Shown here: one piece after another, positions 6,442 through 23,595 of the stretch
How the letters are laid out: each line of letters starts with the position of its first letter
Numbering within the stretch: the first letter of the stretch is position 1
Virus record (IMG/VR): IMGVR_UViG_3300050120_000047
Span: 1-33,516 of that record
Strand: one strand, 5' to 3'
From: a virus
DNA: 33,516 nucleotides
Notes under the pieces: model-generated
What the model was told of the DNA's origin: nothing
The model's database searches: none
The model's input: the letters and a program-made list of their open reading frames with translations, nothing else
Made by a program: the position numbers and the translations under genes

Positions 6442-7152
6442 TCAGAACCGGTAGCTGACCAGCGCCACGAGATGATCCGTCCACAACGGCGGCCAGCCAC
6501 CCGGATGCCCGCTGAACTTCGCGCCATCCTTGACGTATTCCAGTGACAGCGCCACCGGCCAGTCGCGATGGCTCAGCGTGACGCCCACTATCGCGCCCAC
6601 GGCCCAGCGTTGATCGACGGTATGGATCGGCACGATCGGCCCGATGTGGTAGCCGCCGACGGTTTCGCGCGGCGTGTACCACGTCGGCACGCCCACCGGA
6701 TCAGACGGATACCAGTCCGGCACGTCCATGCGCCAGCTCTCGCGGTACAGGATCAGTCCACCCTTGACGCCCACCTGCCAGCGGTCGCCCCAACGGTGTT
6801 CAAGCAGCACCTGAAGTCCCCACAAGCGGCCCGAACCGACGTAGTGCGCCAGGGGCAGGCTGACGTGGGCGGCGTAGGCGGCATCGCTCGGATTATCCAG
6901 CGAGTCACTGCTGTAGCGTCCGAGATCCACCACGCCGGTGACCAGGTCGAGGTTCGGCTTGATCTGCCAGCGCAGATTGATTTCCAGTGCGGGCGACTCG
7001 GTTTTCAGTGTGTACGGGAGGCCTTGCTGATACCAAGTGCCATTGGATCGAATGCCGGCGTGGCTGACGCCCGCACCCAGCTCAAGCTGGACATGCGCCC
7101 ACGCAGAAACGGGCACTGCAAGGAGCAGCGCCATCAAGAGATAGCGAATCAT
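6442..7152 (-). CDS. Phage-encoded outer-membrane beta-barrel protein, Lom-like position
   Basis: The ATG at 7152 is preceded by AAGGAAT. The 236-residue product has a clear Sec signal peptide (MIRYLLMALLLAVPVSAWA, likely cut after Ala19). Alternating beta strands run throughout, and the C-terminal strand ends ALVSYRF; a terminal Phe is the usual beta-barrel assembly signal. It most likely sits in the host outer membrane as a barrel of about 8-10 strands. It lies after the tail-fibre genes and beside int, just as lom does in lambda, so a lysogenic-conversion or surface-modifying role is plausible. It could also be expressed late with the operon. No enzymatic residues are recognised, and the PagP-like alternative is not supported. 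Confidence 0.7.
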   Translation of the reverse strand: MIRYLLMALLLAVPVSAWAHVQLELGAGVSHAGIRSNGTWYQQGLPYTLKTESPALEINLRWQIKPNLDLVTGVVDLGRYSSDSLDNPSDAAYAAHVSLPLAHYVGSGRLWGLQVLLEHRWGDRWQVGVKGGLILYRESWRMDVPDWYPSDPVGVPTWYTPRETVGGYHIGPIVPIHTVDQRWAVGAIVGVTLSHRDWPVALSLEYVKDGAKFSGHPGGWPPLWTDHLVALVSYRF

Positions 7153-7206: not shown

Positions 7207-7680
7207 TCAGGGAGTGGCGAACTGCGCCTGCACGAACGCCGGCAATTCCTTCCATGTCGCGGGCGTGGTGAGCATGGCGCTCGCCCGCGACGCCGTCAGC
7301 AGGCCACCCGTCACCAGTGCGTTGATGCCGCCTTCGGTCACCGGATCGGTGAGGTCAATGAAGGCGGCGAGGTGGATGCGATCCATCAGCCCTTGGATCG
7401 ACGTGCTGGAAGCTTGCGCCGAACGGATCGCGGACTCTTCCGCCGGCAGGAAACGATTGAGCAGTGCCAGCGGCGTGATGATGAGGCCGTAGGTCGGCAC
7501 GGGCGGCGTGTAGGTCGACCAGTCAAAGGCCTTGGTCACGCCGTCGCCCAGATAGAGTGCGCCGTCGTAGTCACCGACGAGTGCATTTGATTCGATCTGG
7601 GTGTTTTGCCAATCGGCTGGGGTGCCGGGGTATTGAATGGCGCCTACGGTGTTCGTCATGAGTGGCGTGGAGATTTTCAT
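7207..7680 (-). CDS. Tail-fibre-associated protein, possible fibre chaperone (157 aa)
   Basis: The ATG at 7680 follows a GGAG site that overlaps the end of the upstream fibre gene. The first half is strand- and turn-rich (VGAIQYPGTPADWQNTQ, then DGVTKAFDWSTYTPP). The second half is helical, with LLNRFLPAEESAIRSAQAS and ASRASAMLTTPATW. The helical half, with its FLPAEESAIR stretch, recalls proteins placed directly after phage tail fibres. The position suggests fibre assembly or attachment. It is not a clear member of the lambda Tfa family, so the function is inferred from context. Confidence 0.55.
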   Translation of the reverse strand: MKISTPLMTNTVGAIQYPGTPADWQNTQIESNALVGDYDGALYLGDGVTKAFDWSTYTPPVPTYGLIITPLALLNRFLPAEESAIRSAQASSTSIQGLMDRIHLAAFIDLTDPVTEGGINALVTGGLLTASRASAMLTTPATWKELPAFVQAQFATP

Positions 7681-7683
7681 GGA

Positions 7684-8745
7684 TCAGACTCCGAAGCGAC
7701 CGTTGTAATAGGAGTGAATCGAATTAATCAGGTTGTCAATATCGGATCGCAAATAGAGGTTCGGGTTTTTCGATGTGACGATGGTGCCGAGGGTGCTTGA
7801 ACTTGTCGATTGATAATACTGATTGGACTGACCGGAGATGTAGGCAAGATATTTTGTGCCGACAAGCACCGGAACCACGCCACTGCTGCGCGTCATGCTG
7901 AATCCGGCATTGGGGCCGGCGAATTCAGCCACGCCGATATGAAGCGCGCTGGAAATCAGTTCGTTGATGCTGCCGCCCGTCAGATTGGCGTAATTCGCGG
8001 TAGTGGGTACGGTCAACCCATCGGCAATCAATGCACCGCATCCAATCGTCCCATCAGCGGTGGTGTAGTAGGCCGCGTGGCCAGCTGGTGCTGACGCGAA
8101 CCAGCCCGATCCCTGACTCGTCCATGCGCCAGTGGTCGTGTCCACCGTGATCTGCGCGCTGCCGCCACCGAACACGCCCACGCCTCGAATGATGATGCTG
8201 GTGCCGGATTTGTAGGCAAAGCCTGCGCCCGTCGTATTCACGCCGCCGCCGTTCGTCGTGTTGACGCAGTTGCCGCGCTTGGCGTAACTGATGGGCCACG
8301 GCAGCGAACCGGCGGCGGCCGTGAGGGTCGTCACCGCCGTGACGGCATCAGCAGGGAAGGTGAATGTTTTCAGGATGACGGCGCTGGATGCGAGCGCGTC
8401 GCTGAGATTGTTATTCGTCGACCACGTATAAAGCAGGGGCGGCGACACTGACGTGTCAACATAGAAAATGTTCAGCCCCTGATAAGTCGATCCGGTCGGA
8501 TCACCATAATCCACGTCGGTATACGTTCTCAAAACGGTTCCAGTGGAATTGTCCACCAGCGTGATGTACTTCGACGCCGCCGCCTGATTCGCATCGGGGA
8601 GCTGGTAATAATACGACGTGCCGGGTACCGGGATAACCGTGTTTCCACTCGGGAACTTCTTGACGAATCCGGTCAGATACGCGGGCAAGACCTTGGCGAA
8701 AGGAAGCGTGCCGCCCGCGCCGAAAAACTGCGAAAAGTTGCTCAT
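7684..8745 (-). CDS. Putative tail fibre or receptor-binding protein (353 aa)
   Basis: The ATG at 8745 is preceded by a GGAG site shared with the upstream stop. The product is rich in Ser, Thr, Gly and Asn with many short beta strands, as in fibrous phage adhesins. The N-terminal part (PYLT-like turns, PVPGTSYYYQLPDANQAA) may attach it to the baseplate or to the preceding fibre. The centre has Gly-rich strands (GVGVFGGGSAQITVD), and the C-terminus ends in a helical tip (LYLRSDIDNLINSIHSYY). I see no glycosidase or lyase motif, so receptor binding rather than depolymerase activity is favoured. Its place between a fibre gene and a possible chaperone supports the call. Confidence 0.55.
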   Translation of the reverse strand: MSNFSQFFGAGGTLPFAKVLPAYLTGFVKKFPSGNTVIPVPGTSYYYQLPDANQAAASKYITLVDNSTGTVLRTYTDVDYGDPTGSTYQGLNIFYVDTSVSPPLLYTWSTNNNLSDALASSAVILKTFTFPADAVTAVTTLTAAAGSLPWPISYAKRGNCVNTTNGGGVNTTGAGFAYKSGTSIIIRGVGVFGGGSAQITVDTTTGAWTSQGSGWFASAPAGHAAYYTTADGTIGCGALIADGLTVPTTANYANLTGGSINELISSALHIGVAEFAGPNAGFSMTRSSGVVPVLVGTKYLAYISGQSNQYYQSTSSSTLGTIVTSKNPNLYLRSDIDNLINSIHSYYNGRFGV

Positions 8746-8748
8746 GGA

Positions 8749-9699
8749 TCAGACTCCGGAAATGGAAGTGGCGAACACGCGCCATGTGGTGGTGGCTGCA
8801 CGCCAGACCAGCGAACCGCCTTGATTGGGTGCGTCCAGCGTCATGTCCTCGGCAATGCCCATGATCGTGTTGCCGTTGCGCTGGAAGGTCACCGCATGCG
8901 TGTTGAAAGCCGTGGGGCCCTGACGCCACTCGACCGCGTCGCCATCGTTGGGCGTGGCCGGTAACACGTAGGAGACGGTACTGGCATCGTTCGGTGGGAT
9001 CACGCGGGCGCCAGGGATGAGCGTGGTGCCGCTAGGGGGCGCCGTCCAAGGCTGCACGCCACCAGGGGAAATCCACGTCGGGCCGACCGCACGCCGGATG
9101 TTCGCCTGAACCACGCTCACGGCGCCGTTGGCAATCGTCACGAACCAGAGCGGCGTCCACCCGGCATCCGGCGTCGGGTCAAGCTGCGTGCCGGTGGTAG
9201 CCGCAACGCCCGCTTTGACCTGATACGCGATGATGCCCTGACGCTCGGTGGCCTGCGCCACGCCATTGTTACCGGGGCCGGCGTAGGCGGCGGCGGGATT
9301 GGAGGCGTTGTAGTACGGCAGCACGACGGGGATCGCATCATTGTCCTGATACTGGCCCTCGATCAGGTAGACGACGGACTGTCCCGCGGTACCGGGTGCT
9401 GGCGTGGCTTCGGAGACCGTGCCCAGCTGAATGCCCTGCTTCACGATCTGATCGGCCGTGTCGGCCGCCAGCGTGCCGTAGGCGGTGGCGTCCACCGTTT
9501 GCAGGCTGTACATCTCGCCCAAGGCGACATTCACCGCCATGCCGGTACCGGGTGTGCAGTTCAGCCCGTTCACTGCGACGTTGCTGGCACCGAACATCGC
9601 GCCAGCCAGCTTGCCGAGCGCGATCATCACGCTGCGGTTGGTGTTGAGCACGTCCGAGTCGAGCGGGACTTGTGCGGGGTAGACGATCAGGCGATCCAT
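8749..9699 (-). CDS. Tail fibre protein (316 aa)
   Basis: This is the first gene after the baseplate set, with an ATG at 9699. The N-terminus (MDRLIVYPAQVPLDSDVLNT) is typical of Mu/P2-like fibre proteins that dock on the baseplate. The middle carries a strand-rich region with VVYLIEGQYQDNDAIPVVLPYY, and the last 90 residues form a beta domain with SYVLPATPNDGDAVEW, FQRNGNTIMGIAEDM and LVWRAATTTWRVF. This pattern of YxLP, GD, RNGxxI and a Trp-rich end strand is common at the tips of phage fibres. An intrinsic terminator separates it from the upstream baseplate gene, suggesting its level is set separately. Confidence 0.65.
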   Translation of the reverse strand: MDRLIVYPAQVPLDSDVLNTNRSVMIALGKLAGAMFGASNVAVNGLNCTPGTGMAVNVALGEMYSLQTVDATAYGTLAADTADQIVKQGIQLGTVSEATPAPGTAGQSVVYLIEGQYQDNDAIPVVLPYYNASNPAAAYAGPGNNGVAQATERQGIIAYQVKAGVAATTGTQLDPTPDAGWTPLWFVTIANGAVSVVQANIRRAVGPTWISPGGVQPWTAPPSGTTLIPGARVIPPNDASTVSYVLPATPNDGDAVEWRQGPTAFNTHAVTFQRNGNTIMGIAEDMTLDAPNQGGSLVWRAATTTWRVFATSISGV

Positions 9700-19258: not shown

Positions 19259-21043
19259 TCAGGCCGGGGTGGTCTGCTGGCGGGTGATCGTCACGGACTG
19301 GCCGCCTTCGATGTTGAGAAGGAACTTCTCGACCACGGACAGGTAGCGCACCTTCACGTCCGCCTGCAGGTAGCCGAGCGCGATCCGGTTCGGCGGGTTG
19401 TTGGTGAGGTCGCACTGCACGCTGAAGTCGTCCACCTGCCGCTGATCCTGCTGAGCCTGCAGGAACGCATCCAGCGTGGTCTTCACCTGCCGGCGCAGCG
19501 GGTCATTGGTCTGCGCCGATTGCAGTTTGCCGATAAACAAGCCCAAGCCCGCCGCGAACGTCGAGGCTTCGTAGTTGGTCATGCGGGTGTAGTTGTCGCC
19601 GCTGGTCGTCGAGTTCGAGCTGGTGTTGTGGCCGATGCGGACACCGAAGCTGTTGCCGGCCGGGATCGGGTTGGCGATCACGTCCAGACCCGCTTGCGCG
19701 AGCTGCTGCAGGTCGGCGGTCGAATAGACCAGGTTCTGGTAGCTCTTCTGGGTGCCAACCACGCCATACAGCGGCTTGTTCAAGCTCGATTCCTGCGGGG
19801 CGAGGTTCGCCAGACGGCCGGCGACGAAACCCTGCGGCGAAATCAGACGGGTGACGCCGTTGGTCACGTCGTTGAAGTACACCCAGTCGCCGAGCAGCAG
19901 CTTGCTGGCGTAGCTGTCGATGCCGGCCGATGCCTTGGCGGCAACCGCTGCAGCGATGGTGTCGCCAGCGGGACCGGTCAGCACCATGTAAGTGCCTTCG
20001 GACAAGCCGTAGGCGTTCTGTGCGCTCCAGGTGGTGGAATCGTCAGCATCGGCCAGCGCTGCCACGCTCGCGCCGGTGTTGCGCAGCGAGTACAGACCTT
20101 TGCGCGGTACGGTGTCCTGCCCGAGCAGCACGGACGCCGTGATGGTGGTCGCGCCATCGGTGCCCGCGGCGAACACTTGCGTCTGGCCGGCCGTGCCGAC
20201 AGCCGGCGCCGAGGTGCCCGCACCTGCCGTGGCCACCACGATCTGCGAGGGGCCACGCAGCCCGCTCAAGCCGTTGTTGACGGCATTGGCGATGGCAATC
20301 CACAACGCATTGCCGGACAGACCCGCGCCGATGTTGTCGAACACTTCGGGCACTTGGCCGGGAATGGCGACGGTGAGGCGGAACGTACCGGACTGACTGC
20401 CGTTGGCGAGCACCGCTTGCACGGAGTTGCCGAGCGTGCCGGTGTACTTCGCCGTCAGCACCGCGCCAGCCACGGACAGGGCTGCGGTTGCCGTGGCGCC
20501 GGTGCCCGCGGAAACGGGCGTGACGGTGGCGGTCGGTGCAACGGTGTAGCCGCTGCCGGGGTTGGTGATCGTGACGGTGGTCAGCGAGCCGATGCCATTG
20601 ACGATGGCCGTCGCCTGAACGCCGCCAGCCGGTGGCGCACCGAGCGCGATCGTGGCGCCCGTGGTGTAGCCGGTCAGGGTGCCGGCGAGGGTAATCGAGG
20701 CCACCGCGCCGTTGTTCAGCGTGGCGGTCGCCGCGACATCGGTGCCATCGGTGACACGCACGCAGCGGAAGTTGTTGGCGCCCTGCATCACGGCAGCAGC
20801 CACCGCGGTGCCGAGGTCATACTTGCGGTTCTGGATCGCGCCGAACTGACGCGCATAGTCGGCCATGTTGGCGACGGTGGTCGGTGCATTGGCCGGGCCC
20901 CATGCGGCGGTGCCGACAAGACCAAGGACGTTGCTGGGTACGCCGTTGAGCAACGCAACGGAGGGTGGCACGATCTGCACATACAGGTCGGGCACGATCA
21001 GCGCGGTGGTATTCAGTGCGCCCTGCTGGGTAATCTGGGACAT
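19259..21043 (-). CDS. Contractile tail sheath protein (594 aa)
   Basis: The ATG at 21043 follows GGAG. The N-terminus (VPDLYVQIVPPSVALLNGVP, then NVLGLVGTAAWGP) is the hallmark of phage sheath proteins. The C-terminal domain has INPIPAG-like ANPIPAGNSFGVRIGHN and the sheath-specific LLNIEGGQSVTI end. Residues about 107-195 look like an inserted, Gly-Thr-rich beta domain (VTITNPGSGYTVAPTATVTP) of a type found on many virion surfaces. The protein makes the contractile outer tube, which is the strongest evidence that this is a myovirus-type phage. Confidence 0.95.
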   Translation of the reverse strand: MSQITQQGALNTTALIVPDLYVQIVPPSVALLNGVPSNVLGLVGTAAWGPANAPTTVANMADYARQFGAIQNRKYDLGTAVAAAVMQGANNFRCVRVTDGTDVAATATLNNGAVASITLAGTLTGYTTGATIALGAPPAGGVQATAIVNGIGSLTTVTITNPGSGYTVAPTATVTPVSAGTGATATAALSVAGAVLTAKYTGTLGNSVQAVLANGSQSGTFRLTVAIPGQVPEVFDNIGAGLSGNALWIAIANAVNNGLSGLRGPSQIVVATAGAGTSAPAVGTAGQTQVFAAGTDGATTITASVLLGQDTVPRKGLYSLRNTGASVAALADADDSTTWSAQNAYGLSEGTYMVLTGPAGDTIAAAVAAKASAGIDSYASKLLLGDWVYFNDVTNGVTRLISPQGFVAGRLANLAPQESSLNKPLYGVVGTQKSYQNLVYSTADLQQLAQAGLDVIANPIPAGNSFGVRIGHNTSSNSTTSGDNYTRMTNYEASTFAAGLGLFIGKLQSAQTNDPLRRQVKTTLDAFLQAQQDQRQVDDFSVQCDLTNNPPNRIALGYLQADVKVRYLSVVEKFLLNIEGGQSVTITRQQTTPA

Positions 21044-21079: not shown

Positions 21080-21325
21080 TCAGGAAGGGTCGGCATCCGA
21101 AGCGGCGACATCGGCGGCCGGATCGGATGGCAGTGCGGGTTCGGTGGGCTCGGGAATCGGTTCCGGAACGGGCTCACTCTCGGCATCCGAAGCGGCAACA
21201 TCGGGTGCGCTCGACGACACCACGTTCGGGGCGCTTTCGGAGGCGAGGATGGCGGCCTCATCAGCAGCAGGAATCACGTCGCCGGGCTGGTAGGCGCCGA
21301 AGGGATGGATGACGGTCAGGGACAT
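21080..21325 (-). CDS. Small acidic Pro-rich protein of the tail region (81 aa)
   Basis: I chose the ATG at 21325. The first 35 residues (MSLTVIHPFGAYQPGDVIP, then an acidic helix AADEAAILASE) look like a small folded domain. The rest is low-complexity and contains a duplicated APDVAASDAES/AADVAASDADPS unit around EPVPEPIPEPTEPALP. HPFG-Y-PGD-I openings occur in short proteins next to tail sheath genes of Mu-like phages. Function unknown; the disordered tail could be a flexible linker to a partner. Confidence 0.6.
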   Translation of the reverse strand: MSLTVIHPFGAYQPGDVIPAADEAAILASESAPNVVSSSAPDVAASDAESEPVPEPIPEPTEPALPSDPAADVAASDADPS

Positions 21326-21350
21326 GGCGAGCCTCACTGGTAGTTGATGA

Positions 21351-21578
21351 TCATTGATACGTGGTGGTGACGAGGCGCGCACTGGCGCCTGCGTAGCCGG
21401 TGAAGTAGGTGAGCAGCGCATCGCCCTGAGGGCCGGAAAGCAGCGCCTCCACGGTGGTGCTGGCGGACGATTGCGAAGGATCCACCACGATCGAGCCGCT
21501 GAACGTGATCTCGCCCGCACAAGCTGCGGCGCATGCACAACTGCCGATCAGCAGCGCCCATACTTTTGCGCGGCGCAT
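21351..21578 (-). CDS. Small exported protein beside the fibre gene (75 aa)
   Basis: The ATG at 21578 overlaps the TGA of the fibre gene (TGATG). The first 22 residues (MRRAKVWALLIGSCACAAAC) form a signal peptide rich in cysteine, with a possible lipobox-like AAAC although an ideal L-x-x-C is missing. The mature part is one short strand-rich segment (GEITFSGSIVVDPSQSSAST, then VEALLSGPQGDALLTYFTGY). A secreted protein inside a virion structural operon is unusual; see findings. Function unknown. Confidence 0.6.
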   Translation of the reverse strand: MRRAKVWALLIGSCACAAACAGEITFSGSIVVDPSQSSASTTVEALLSGPQGDALLTYFTGYAGASARLVTTTYQ

Positions 21579-22666
21579 CAGTTGGTCACCTGCTTCCAAT
21601 CGGCGCTGCTGGTGGTGCCGACCGCCATGTAGCCAAGACCACCCGAAACAGCCAACTGCCCAAGCCGGGTCGGCGTGCCGGTAATGTCGGTGCCGCAGAG
21701 CTGACCTACCGTGGCGGCGTCAGTTGGGGCTGTGCCAGCTTTCACGCAGGTAATCGTCTTTGTCGCGGCTGGCGTGCCTACGGAAACGGAGTTGTTCTGC
21801 TGGGTTTGTGAGGCGTTGCCGAGCGCTACGGCGTTGTCATGGCTGACGTACGCACTGCTGCCGATCGCTGTGCCTCTTATGACTCCATCTACGTAAGCGC
21901 TTGGCCCCATGGCTACCGAATTGGATGAGTCGGAAACTCCGCCATTGATGATCGCGCCGAAACCTATGGCTATGGAATTATTGGCCGTCGCGCGGCTGAA
22001 TCGACCTACCGCGATCGTATCGGTAAATCCTGCCGTTCCTGACGCACCCGCGCCGATCACGATAGCGTTGGTAGCGCCGGCACCAATCGGCGGCGGCGTG
22101 CCACTGTAGCTGTCGATGATATATGGGCTTGCGCCCGATGCGGCAGGAGCCCATCCAGCCACGCCACCGGTGATCGTCCACACATATCCATTCGTGCTGA
22201 TCGCTACGCGTGTTGGAGCGCCAGCCGCGCCGCCTACGATCATGTCACCGGCAGTGGTCATCGGGTTGGTCATACCGCCCGCACCCGTGGCACCCGTATC
22301 TCCTTTGTAGTTCACGCCAGCAGGCCATGCACCGCCAGATTTCGGGCCATAGATCAATTGCGCGGCCGGATCAACGGCATAGTCGCCGTTGTTTCCCGTG
22401 CTACTGGAAGGGGCTCCCGTGGTGGATAGGATCGTGTTCCCATTTGCGCCATTGCCGCCGTTCGTTCCTGCGGCTCCGTCCGCTCCCTGCGAAGCCAGCA
22501 GCTGATAGTTCACCCCGTCATTCGCGGGAGTGACGCCAGTGATCGACTTGAGCGCCAGATAGCTGGATCCGCCGTAGGTGACGGCGTCCAAGAAGGCATA
22601 GGCGGCGGCGGAGTTGTACGCGCCGCGTGGGGTAATGGCGACCTTTCCGAGATTGGTAGCGGTCAT
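21578..22666 (-). CDS. Fibre protein with YadA-type adhesin head repeats (362 aa)
   Basis: The gene lies between connector and sheath genes, so it probably encodes a head, neck or collar fibre rather than a tail fibre. Residues 1-58 have a YNSAAAYAFLDAVTYGGSSY motif like carbohydrate-binding modules. Around 58-77 lie collagen-like G-x-y triplets, then GNNGDYAVDPAAQLIYG, KGDTGATGAG and an alanine/glycine-rich region. Residues about 199-297 contain successive YadA-head repeats (NSIAIGFGA, NSVAMGPSA, NAVALGNAS, NSVSVG) and end in the TATIAG-type neck motif (KTITCVKAGTAPTDAATVGQ, residues 303-322). Such repeats trimerise as left-handed beta-rolls in trimeric autotransporters. Trimeric fibre is a confident inference; the target receptor is unknown. 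Confidence 0.75.
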   Translation of the reverse strand: MTATNLGKVAITPRGAYNSAAAYAFLDAVTYGGSSYLALKSITGVTPANDGVNYQLLASQGADGAAGTNGGNGANGNTILSTTGAPSSSTGNNGDYAVDPAAQLIYGPKSGGAWPAGVNYKGDTGATGAGGMTNPMTTAGDMIVGGAAGAPTRVAISTNGYVWTITGGVAGWAPAASGASPYIIDSYSGTPPPIGAGATNAIVIGAGASGTAGFTDTIAVGRFSRATANNSIAIGFGAIINGGVSDSSNSVAMGPSAYVDGVIRGTAIGSSAYVSHDNAVALGNASQTQQNNSVSVGTPAATKTITCVKAGTAPTDAATVGQLCGTDITGTPTRLGQLAVSGGLGYMAVGTTSSADWKQVTN

Positions 22667-23595
22667 GGGGTGGTCATCTCAAGGTTGCCGTTTGCGTCGA
22701 TGAAGAATGTGGGCCCGGTGTAGCCGTCCGGGATGGTCACGGAAAGATCGCCAGTGATGGGAGAGATGGAGAAAGTTGCGGAAAGCTCGCCAGCGCCGGA
22801 CGACTCTTCGCCGACAATGACGGTGGTGGCAGTAACGGTCTGCGTGGTGCTGTACTCGACCGAATACAGCATGTCGCGCCGGTACAGATTGGCCTTGGAC
22901 TGGTCGTCGATCTGGTGACTAGCCTCGTACAGCAGGCGAGCTTGCGTCTGGTCAGGCATCGTCATCCGCTCGATGGCGGACAGGGCGACATCCACCGCGA
23001 CCGCCGTCGCATCGCGGTTGGCCGGTGTGTCAGCCCATACCGTGATTTGCATGCGGCGCGTCTGGCGCCTGATCTCACGCTGCATCGTGCCGCCAGCGCC
23101 GGTGCGGGCCGCGCGGATCGCCGCGCCTGCCGGGATGGTGATGACAGCCCCGGTGTTGCTCGCGCCGGCCACCAGGGCCGCCAGCGCAGTGGCAATCGTG
23201 GTCAGCGTGTCAGTCGGCTGCACGGCGTAGACATAGGCCGCGTTGTCGATAATCAGCGCCACGTTCTGCGGTGTCGCCACGGTGCCGCCGATGGTCACGG
23301 TCTGGCCGGTGATCGTCGCGGTCAGAGTGGGAGCGGTGACGGTCAACTCTTCCCATTGCGTGCGGTACGGCGGGTCGCGCTTTTCGGTCGGTGTCGGAAA
23401 CACGGTTACATGCAACCGGCCACCGAGCCCGTTGGAAAACCCGGCCAGATCAGCGTCCAGTTGCGAGGACGTCGGCCAGCCGGCGTAGATCACGGTCGGG
23501 TAGCCGGTCACCGATGGCTGCGCGGTACCGTTGGGGTACAGCGCTTGCGCAATCAGCCCGACGAGTGCGGCGGAAACATCGGAGACGTCAGACAT
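22663..23595 (-). CDS. Neck/tail completion protein with inserted beta domain (310 aa)
   Basis: The start at ATG 23595 overlaps the upstream stop. The N-terminal 80 residues (ALVGLIAQALYPNGTAQPSV, later GGRLHVTVFPTPTEKRD) and the RRQTRRMQITVWADTPANRD segment near residue 180 recall tail-completion proteins. Between them sits a Thr-rich inserted domain (TATITGQTVTIGGTVATPQN, then DTLTTIATALAALVAG) that recurs as a decoration in many Mu-like virion proteins. The last 40 residues (GDLSVTIPDGYTGPTFFIDA) resemble a fibre-docking domain, and the next gene encodes a fibre. The assignment to the neck is from gene order. Confidence 0.6.
   Translation of the reverse strand: MSDVSDVSAALVGLIAQALYPNGTAQPSVTGYPTVIYAGWPTSSQLDADLAGFSNGLGGRLHVTVFPTPTEKRDPPYRTQWEELTVTAPTLTATITGQTVTIGGTVATPQNVALIIDNAAYVYAVQPTDTLTTIATALAALVAGASNTGAVITIPAGAAIRAARTGAGGTMQREIRRQTRRMQITVWADTPANRDATAVAVDVALSAIERMTMPDQTQARLLYEASHQIDDQSKANLYRRDMLYSVEYSTTQTVTATTVIVGEESSGAGELSATFSISPITGDLSVTIPDGYTGPTFFIDANGNLEMTTP

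Follow-up and report, generated by a model that had tools for sequence, protein, structure and literature searches.

The window, i.e. the complete stretch of 33,516 nucleotides analysed here (a 33.5-kb virus record), reads mostly on the minus strand, which carries genes for terminase, portal, a scaffold-type protein, capsid (phrog_1357) and connector-type proteins as well as sheath, tape measure, baseplate J, gpV, hub and tail fibre genes; a large serine recombinase (serine integrase) is encoded on the plus strand. Genes are arranged in the order capsid, two connector-type genes, tail terminator, fibre gene, small ORF, pre-sheath gene, and sheath (Table 1), confirming the initial annotation, which had placed the fibre gene between connector and tail sheath. 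The start codon of the fibre ORF overlaps the stop codon of the terminator gene (ATGA), and the fibre stop codon overlaps the start of the 75-aa ORF (TGATG), suggesting that the three genes are translationally coupled. The 75-aa product has a hydrophobic, signal-like N-terminus (MRRAKVWALLIGSCACAAACAGEITFSGS...) and could be a second part of an appendage or an exported protein; it did not match a pilin-like or otherwise known protein in Pfam, phages or the PDB.

Table 1. Features of the fibre locus and of associated tail genes in the window
Feature	Coordinates	Strand	Evidence or remark
Tail terminator (phrog_13532), putative fibre carrier	22663..23595	-	AlphaFold fold match
C-terminal anchor peptide of terminator, residues 269-310 (~42)	22666..22791	-	not in 150 relatives
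Putative neck-fibre gene, 362 aa, ATG start	21578..22666	-	phage-fibre and YadA-like modules
Fibre N-domain, residues 1-62, CBM5/12-like, putative docking domain	22481..22666	-	profile and homologues
Collagen-like triplets and GDYAVDP...YGPKSGGAWP linker module, residues 62-131	22274..22483	-	sequence
NPMTTAGDMIVGG module (NPMTTAGDMI), residues 129-178, widespread in phage fibres	22133..22282	-	
About six YadA-head repeats, residues 197-298	21773..22078	-	Pfam YadA_head; PDB adhesins
YadA-type neck motif NSVSVG...KAGTAPTDAATVGQL, residues 293-324	21695..21790	-	Pfam; PDB alignments
C-terminal tip, residues 325-362	21581..21694	-	common to two other phage proteins
Small ORF, 75 aa, within inserted cassette	21351..21578	-	overlaps fibre stop
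Remnant of the ancestral terminator 3' end, left stranded (CTACCAGTGAGGC, ...YQ stop and spacer)	21331..21343	-	
Small pre-sheath gene	21080..21328	-	kept at same place in relatives
Tail sheath	19259..21043	-	phrog_23 E 6e-46; Pfam sheath C-terminal domain
Baseplate-side tail fibre	8749..9699	-	N-terminal ~200 aa matched in 48 fetched loci

The fibre protein is a mosaic of modules. Its N-domain, the only one of its kind in the window, was recognized by a profile built without the window (E 1e-21) and is common to Dulem virus 33 (53-58% identity), marine podophage fibres and others. The initial annotation had read this N-terminal part as carbohydrate-binding-like and collagen-containing. A weak likeness of the first 60 residues to CBM5/12 modules was indeed found in a profile search (chitinase A1, 1ed7, E 0.004), PDB relatives being chitin-binding modules alone, plus the short tail fibre of phage A-1(L) at E 0.18; collagen-like triplets do exist, but are scarce (about 5 plus 3), so that the collagen content is small. 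Residues 79-122 share 64-66% identity with tail fibres of Burkholderia jumbo phages, and the succession of N-domain and NPMTTAGDMI module recurs in another locus (L033). The C-terminal tip also terminates a BppU-like baseplate protein (L204) and a pectate-lyase-like spike (L205), and the whole of residues 121-362 is found again, at ~55% identity and behind a different N-terminus, between the lysis and terminase genes of L002. Searching phages with the whole fibre protein gave only partial matches, to the N-domain or linker modules. An AlphaFold monomer of the fibre, for which a single good relative was available, was too poor (pLDDT 44) and was not used for a fold search.

The proposal that the fibre contains YadA-type repeats and a neck motif was borne out. 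The repeats TNAIVIG, TDTIAVG, NSIAIG, NSVAMG, GTAIG and NAVALG are followed by the neck NSVSVG...KTITCVKAGTAPTDAATVGQL. Pfam YadA_head matched four stretches with an E-value of 7.4e-10, above its curated cut-off, whereas the stalk/neck model YadA_stalk remained below its cut-off (E 0.012). In a sequence search of the PDB, the SadA construct 2yo0 (E 4e-10) and the YadA head 1p9h (E 4e-8), then BpaC and EibD, matched residues 195-329, the neck motif included, with alignments running through residues 323-329. The NCBIfam models YadA and BimA match the same residues, far under their full-length cut-offs. Taken together, the Pfam, PDB and NCBIfam matches indicate homology rather than chance resemblance, and a YadA-like head would imply a trimeric fibre. 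No YadA membrane-anchor domain was detected with Pfam up to E 1, the fibre ending instead in a spike/baseplate-type tip; inspection by eye did not reveal an apparent signal peptide, the N-terminus being a phage docking-type domain. Thus, the fibre does not appear to be an autotransporter.

YadA domains have been reported before in structural proteins of phages, namely pelagimyophages (PMC7029224). Only seven of 50,697 phage records matched the YadA part at E 0.01, indicating that such heads are rare in phage records; the seven include three prophage-borne eib genes and a gene of FLC9 which reads as a complete autotransporter. Several close relatives belong with the Rhodanobacteraceae (Dyella, Luteibacter). 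The genomes of the relatives' hosts did not contain the whole fibre; in Luteibacter, the YadA part alone matched an open frame of 2367 aa at ~40% identity, presumably a bacterial adhesin, suggesting that the YadA module may derive from a cellular adhesin.

The protein encoded upstream of the fibre, assigned to a phrog annotated as of unknown function, is predicted to have a tail-terminator fold. Its AlphaFold model, built with 60 sequences (pLDDT 88.8), matched T5 p142 (Z 14.2, 143 residues, rmsd 3.2), lambda gpU (12.5), the R2 pyocin collar (12.5), and the corresponding proteins of Mu (12.1), XM1 (10.8, neck chain 7kjk_A5) and A-1(L) (9.9). The last ~42 residues, however, differ from those of every relative, and were modelled, with low to middling confidence, as a beta hairpin on a flexible linker. 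The C-terminal arm of tail terminators normally pairs with the sheath (PMC10491603).

For comparison, 150 other loci with a recognizable terminator gene and sheath were collected, some of them duplicates. Their terminator-sheath interval is mostly 0-300 bp and holds the small pre-sheath gene only, as compared to 1620 bp in the window, and none of the 150, including those with intervals >700 bp, has a fibre between terminator and sheath. In L145, this interval contains an Ig-like-looking ORF (485-982), so the site may accept different decorations. In ten of the 16 closest terminator genes, a ...YQ-stop end and a short spacer precede the pre-sheath ATG. In the window, the pre-sheath ATG is immediately preceded by CTACCAGTGAGGC, a sequence that corresponds to this ancestral end but lies beyond the fibre gene and the small ORF. 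Of 306 fetched loci, nine contain the 11-mer CTACCAGTGAG: the window itself, seven in which it forms a terminator gene end, and L072, where it is found elsewhere. The stranded terminator end together with the replaced C-terminus shows that a cassette entered the last terminator codons and brought its own anchor; as the ancestral end lies downstream of the insert, anchor peptide and fibre arrived together.

The protein encoded directly before the fibre of Dulem virus 33 ends in GDLLYATFAVDPLTGILTMYAPDDYNGPQFVLNGSYLEVVVYG, which is similar to the new tail of the terminator, GELSATFSISPITGDLSVTIPDGYTGPTFFIDANGNLEMTTP. This virus was also the best match (E 0.006) when the anchor peptide alone was searched against 2.3 Gb of phage records, and its best anchor match lies directly upstream of its best match to the fibre N-domain; a scan with the Dulem virus N-domain alone did not yield additional loci. 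The same arrangement, an N-domain fibre gene behind a gene whose product ends in a hairpin sequence of this type, was seen in marine podophages, the gut-type contig L200 and a crAss-like phage. An anchor profile was built from ten other carriers, excluding the window, and run on 13,983 C-termini. Among 151 terminators, that of the window was the sole one found (E 5e-9), and the further held-out matches L212, L211 and L033 each lie directly before an N-domain gene. Profiles of marine carriers only (E 0.005) or gut carriers only (E 6e-6) also found the window. In 77 of 79 test loci, which are mostly related marine phages with about six carrier types rather than 79 independent cases, the gene upstream of the N-domain gene bears the anchor, and the other two show no upstream gene. 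Of the remaining C-termini in these loci, 11 of 757 match the anchor, and ten of the 11 are also located directly before an N-domain gene. Two held-out anchor C-termini of Pelagibacter phage Hodr (L210; 899-1471 and 361-681) are not immediately followed by an N-domain gene in the gene order examined, and are possible exceptions to strict adjacency.

The window contains exactly one anchor and one N-domain; its baseplate and tail-fibre proteins are all devoid of the anchor peptide, which only the terminator bears. Owing to its genetic pairing with a peptide at the C-terminus of the upstream gene's product, the N-domain is more likely to dock than to bind glycans. The earlier proposal of an N-terminal glycan binder is thus not supported as stated, this part behaving as the partner of the upstream protein's C-terminal peptide.

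The window also encodes a conventional tail fibre with a conserved N-terminus, which in the loci examined among the 48 that match it occupies its usual place after the baseplate genes; the putative neck fibre would hence be additional, i.e. accessory. The two genes after the conventional fibre (7207-8745, minus strand; 353 and 157 aa) are without a counterpart among the fetched relatives, suggesting that they form a variable receptor-binding end. The tail fibre cluster ends with a gene (6442-7152, minus strand) whose product has a signal peptide and the look of an outer-membrane barrel but no family match, and is a candidate for surface modification or superinfection functions. The sheath contains, at about residues 105-197, an insertion of roughly 80-95 residues which is rich in GSGYTVAPTATV-type sequence and absent from L035 and phiKX1; sheaths are also longer in several relatives (L040-L042, L120), perhaps due to a surface decoration domain.

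We consider it likely, with a probability of about 0.72, that the fibre is an accessory neck fibre which was inserted as a cassette, docks with its N-domain on the terminator anchor, and acts as an extra adhesin. The phage, temperate and with a contractile tail, received a cassette of ~1.3 kb within the last codons of its tail-terminator gene; this exchanged the terminator's own C-terminal tail for the hairpin anchor on its flexible linker and added a fibre gene whose N-domain is of the kind that pairs with these anchors. Presumably hexameric, the terminator ring would expose as many as six anchors where head and tail meet. Fibres would dock on them via their N-domains with the YadA-like head and C-terminal tip facing outward, and the neck fibre would serve as an extra weak-binding adhesin alongside the normal tail fibres. 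Joint insertion of anchor and fibre on the terminator suggests that the fibre probably docks there, at the neck. Of the initial interpretation, which had proposed a trimeric, lollipop-shaped fibre near the head or neck that may bind host or mucus glycans, the location is thus strengthened, for the neck, by an independent line of sequence evidence, the docking peptide transplanted onto the tail terminator, while the glycan-binding role of the N-terminus is weakened, leaving it partly supported. Given the usual pairing with the sheath, exchange of the terminator's C-terminal end may come at a functional cost, which weighs against this reading.

The fibre is built of modules that belong to tail fibres and baseplate proteins, and the place of a gene alone does not determine where its product sits in the virion: in A-1(L), the genes for the neck fibres are remote from other structural genes (PMC10966104). 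The protein might therefore be an ordinary tail fibre on the baseplate, its gene merely residing in an unusual place. We regard this as unlikely, since in the window the anchor peptide is confined to the tail terminator and absent from the baseplate and tail-fibre proteins, the conventional tail fibre is already there, and anchor and fibre were inserted jointly. YadA-like genes in phage records include eibC, eibD, eibE and the full autotransporter gene in FLC9, and a serine integrase is encoded in the window. On these grounds, a role outside the virion was also considered, as an adhesin of lysogenic conversion that is exposed on the bacterial cell in the manner of the prophage-borne Eib proteins. 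This appears highly improbable, because a YadA membrane anchor was not found with Pfam, a signal peptide is not apparent, the N-terminus is that of phage fibres, and the gene is translationally coupled to the terminator gene within a structural operon.

A fibre at the neck could also serve assembly or stability instead of attachment, comparable to the T4 whiskers which handle tail fibres. The neck fibres of T4 and A-1(L) have been discussed in such terms, and neck fibres need not bind hosts, as host binding was not seen for the carbohydrate-binding module in the neck fibre of A-1(L) (PMC10966104). However, a YadA-like head and a C-terminal tip that can be swapped are modules of adhesins, and close relatives do without the fibre, making an assembly role rather unlikely.

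Neck fibres of phages are known from XM1, A-1(L), T4, and the lactococcal neck passage structure (NPS). Vibrio phage XM1, which has a contractile tail, carries six trimeric adhesin-like collar spikes of gp40 that touch the tail terminator and presumably sense the host (PMC10457771). The window fibre resembles gp40 in being a putative adhesin-like neck appendage at the tail terminator. However, gp40 binds gp4 and gp5 via an Ig-like N-domain and carries a tailspike (PMC10457771), whereas the window fibre has a CBM5/12-like N-domain, a YadA-like head, and, as the probable link, the C-terminal peptide of the terminator. The cyanophage A-1(L), a myophage, likewise has trimeric neck fibres (gp82-gp81-gp80), but these form a three-protein bead chain with a pilus-like N-domain on pentadecameric gp5, and are encoded distant from other structural genes (PMC10966104). 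The NPS of lactococcal 936 and TP901-1 phages are optional neck adhesin fibres besides the tail RBP, as proposed here; these phages are, however, siphophages, and their NPS have a BppU-like N-domain and a predicted collar ring of their own, YadA modules not having been reported (PMC6669499).

Secondary fibres of marine podophages (such as Pelagibacter phages HTVC031P and HTVC024P) share the N-domain and are encoded directly downstream of a gene with the same kind of C-terminal peptide, but there the peptide is borne by the tail fibre or by a linker protein of ~100 aa instead of a neck protein, and those examined lack a YadA-like head. The autotransporter adhesins YadA, SadA and EibD have head repeats and neck motif in common with the window fibre, which in contrast has no apparent signal peptide, no long stalk and no membrane anchor, but the N-domain of phage fibres. 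The "LbR YadA-like protein" of bajarodcaudo virus 2 (L306, 3413-4636) has YadA-like repeats, and its gene adjoins the portal gene in the head region; its N-terminus, reminiscent of head fibres, differs from the N-domain, and the portal is without an anchor, so that it represents an independent head-region case. The YadA-like genes of both bajarodcaudo virus 2 and FLC9 were rejected as members of the same system, having neither anchor nor N-domain.

More generally, it seems fairly probable that the pair acts as plug and socket, a C-terminal hairpin on any virion protein recruiting fibres with CBM5/12-like N-domains encoded downstream, across unrelated phages; in the window, the pair would have moved with a YadA-headed fibre onto the tail terminator, a single insertion event giving rise to a neck fibre. 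Neck and head fibres are usually noticed by microscopy only. If the peptide and N-domain do dock, sequence alone would reveal which virion protein bears an accessory fibre, the gain of appendages at new sites by single insertions would be explained, and many fibre domains annotated as "carbohydrate-binding" in phages would become docking domains.
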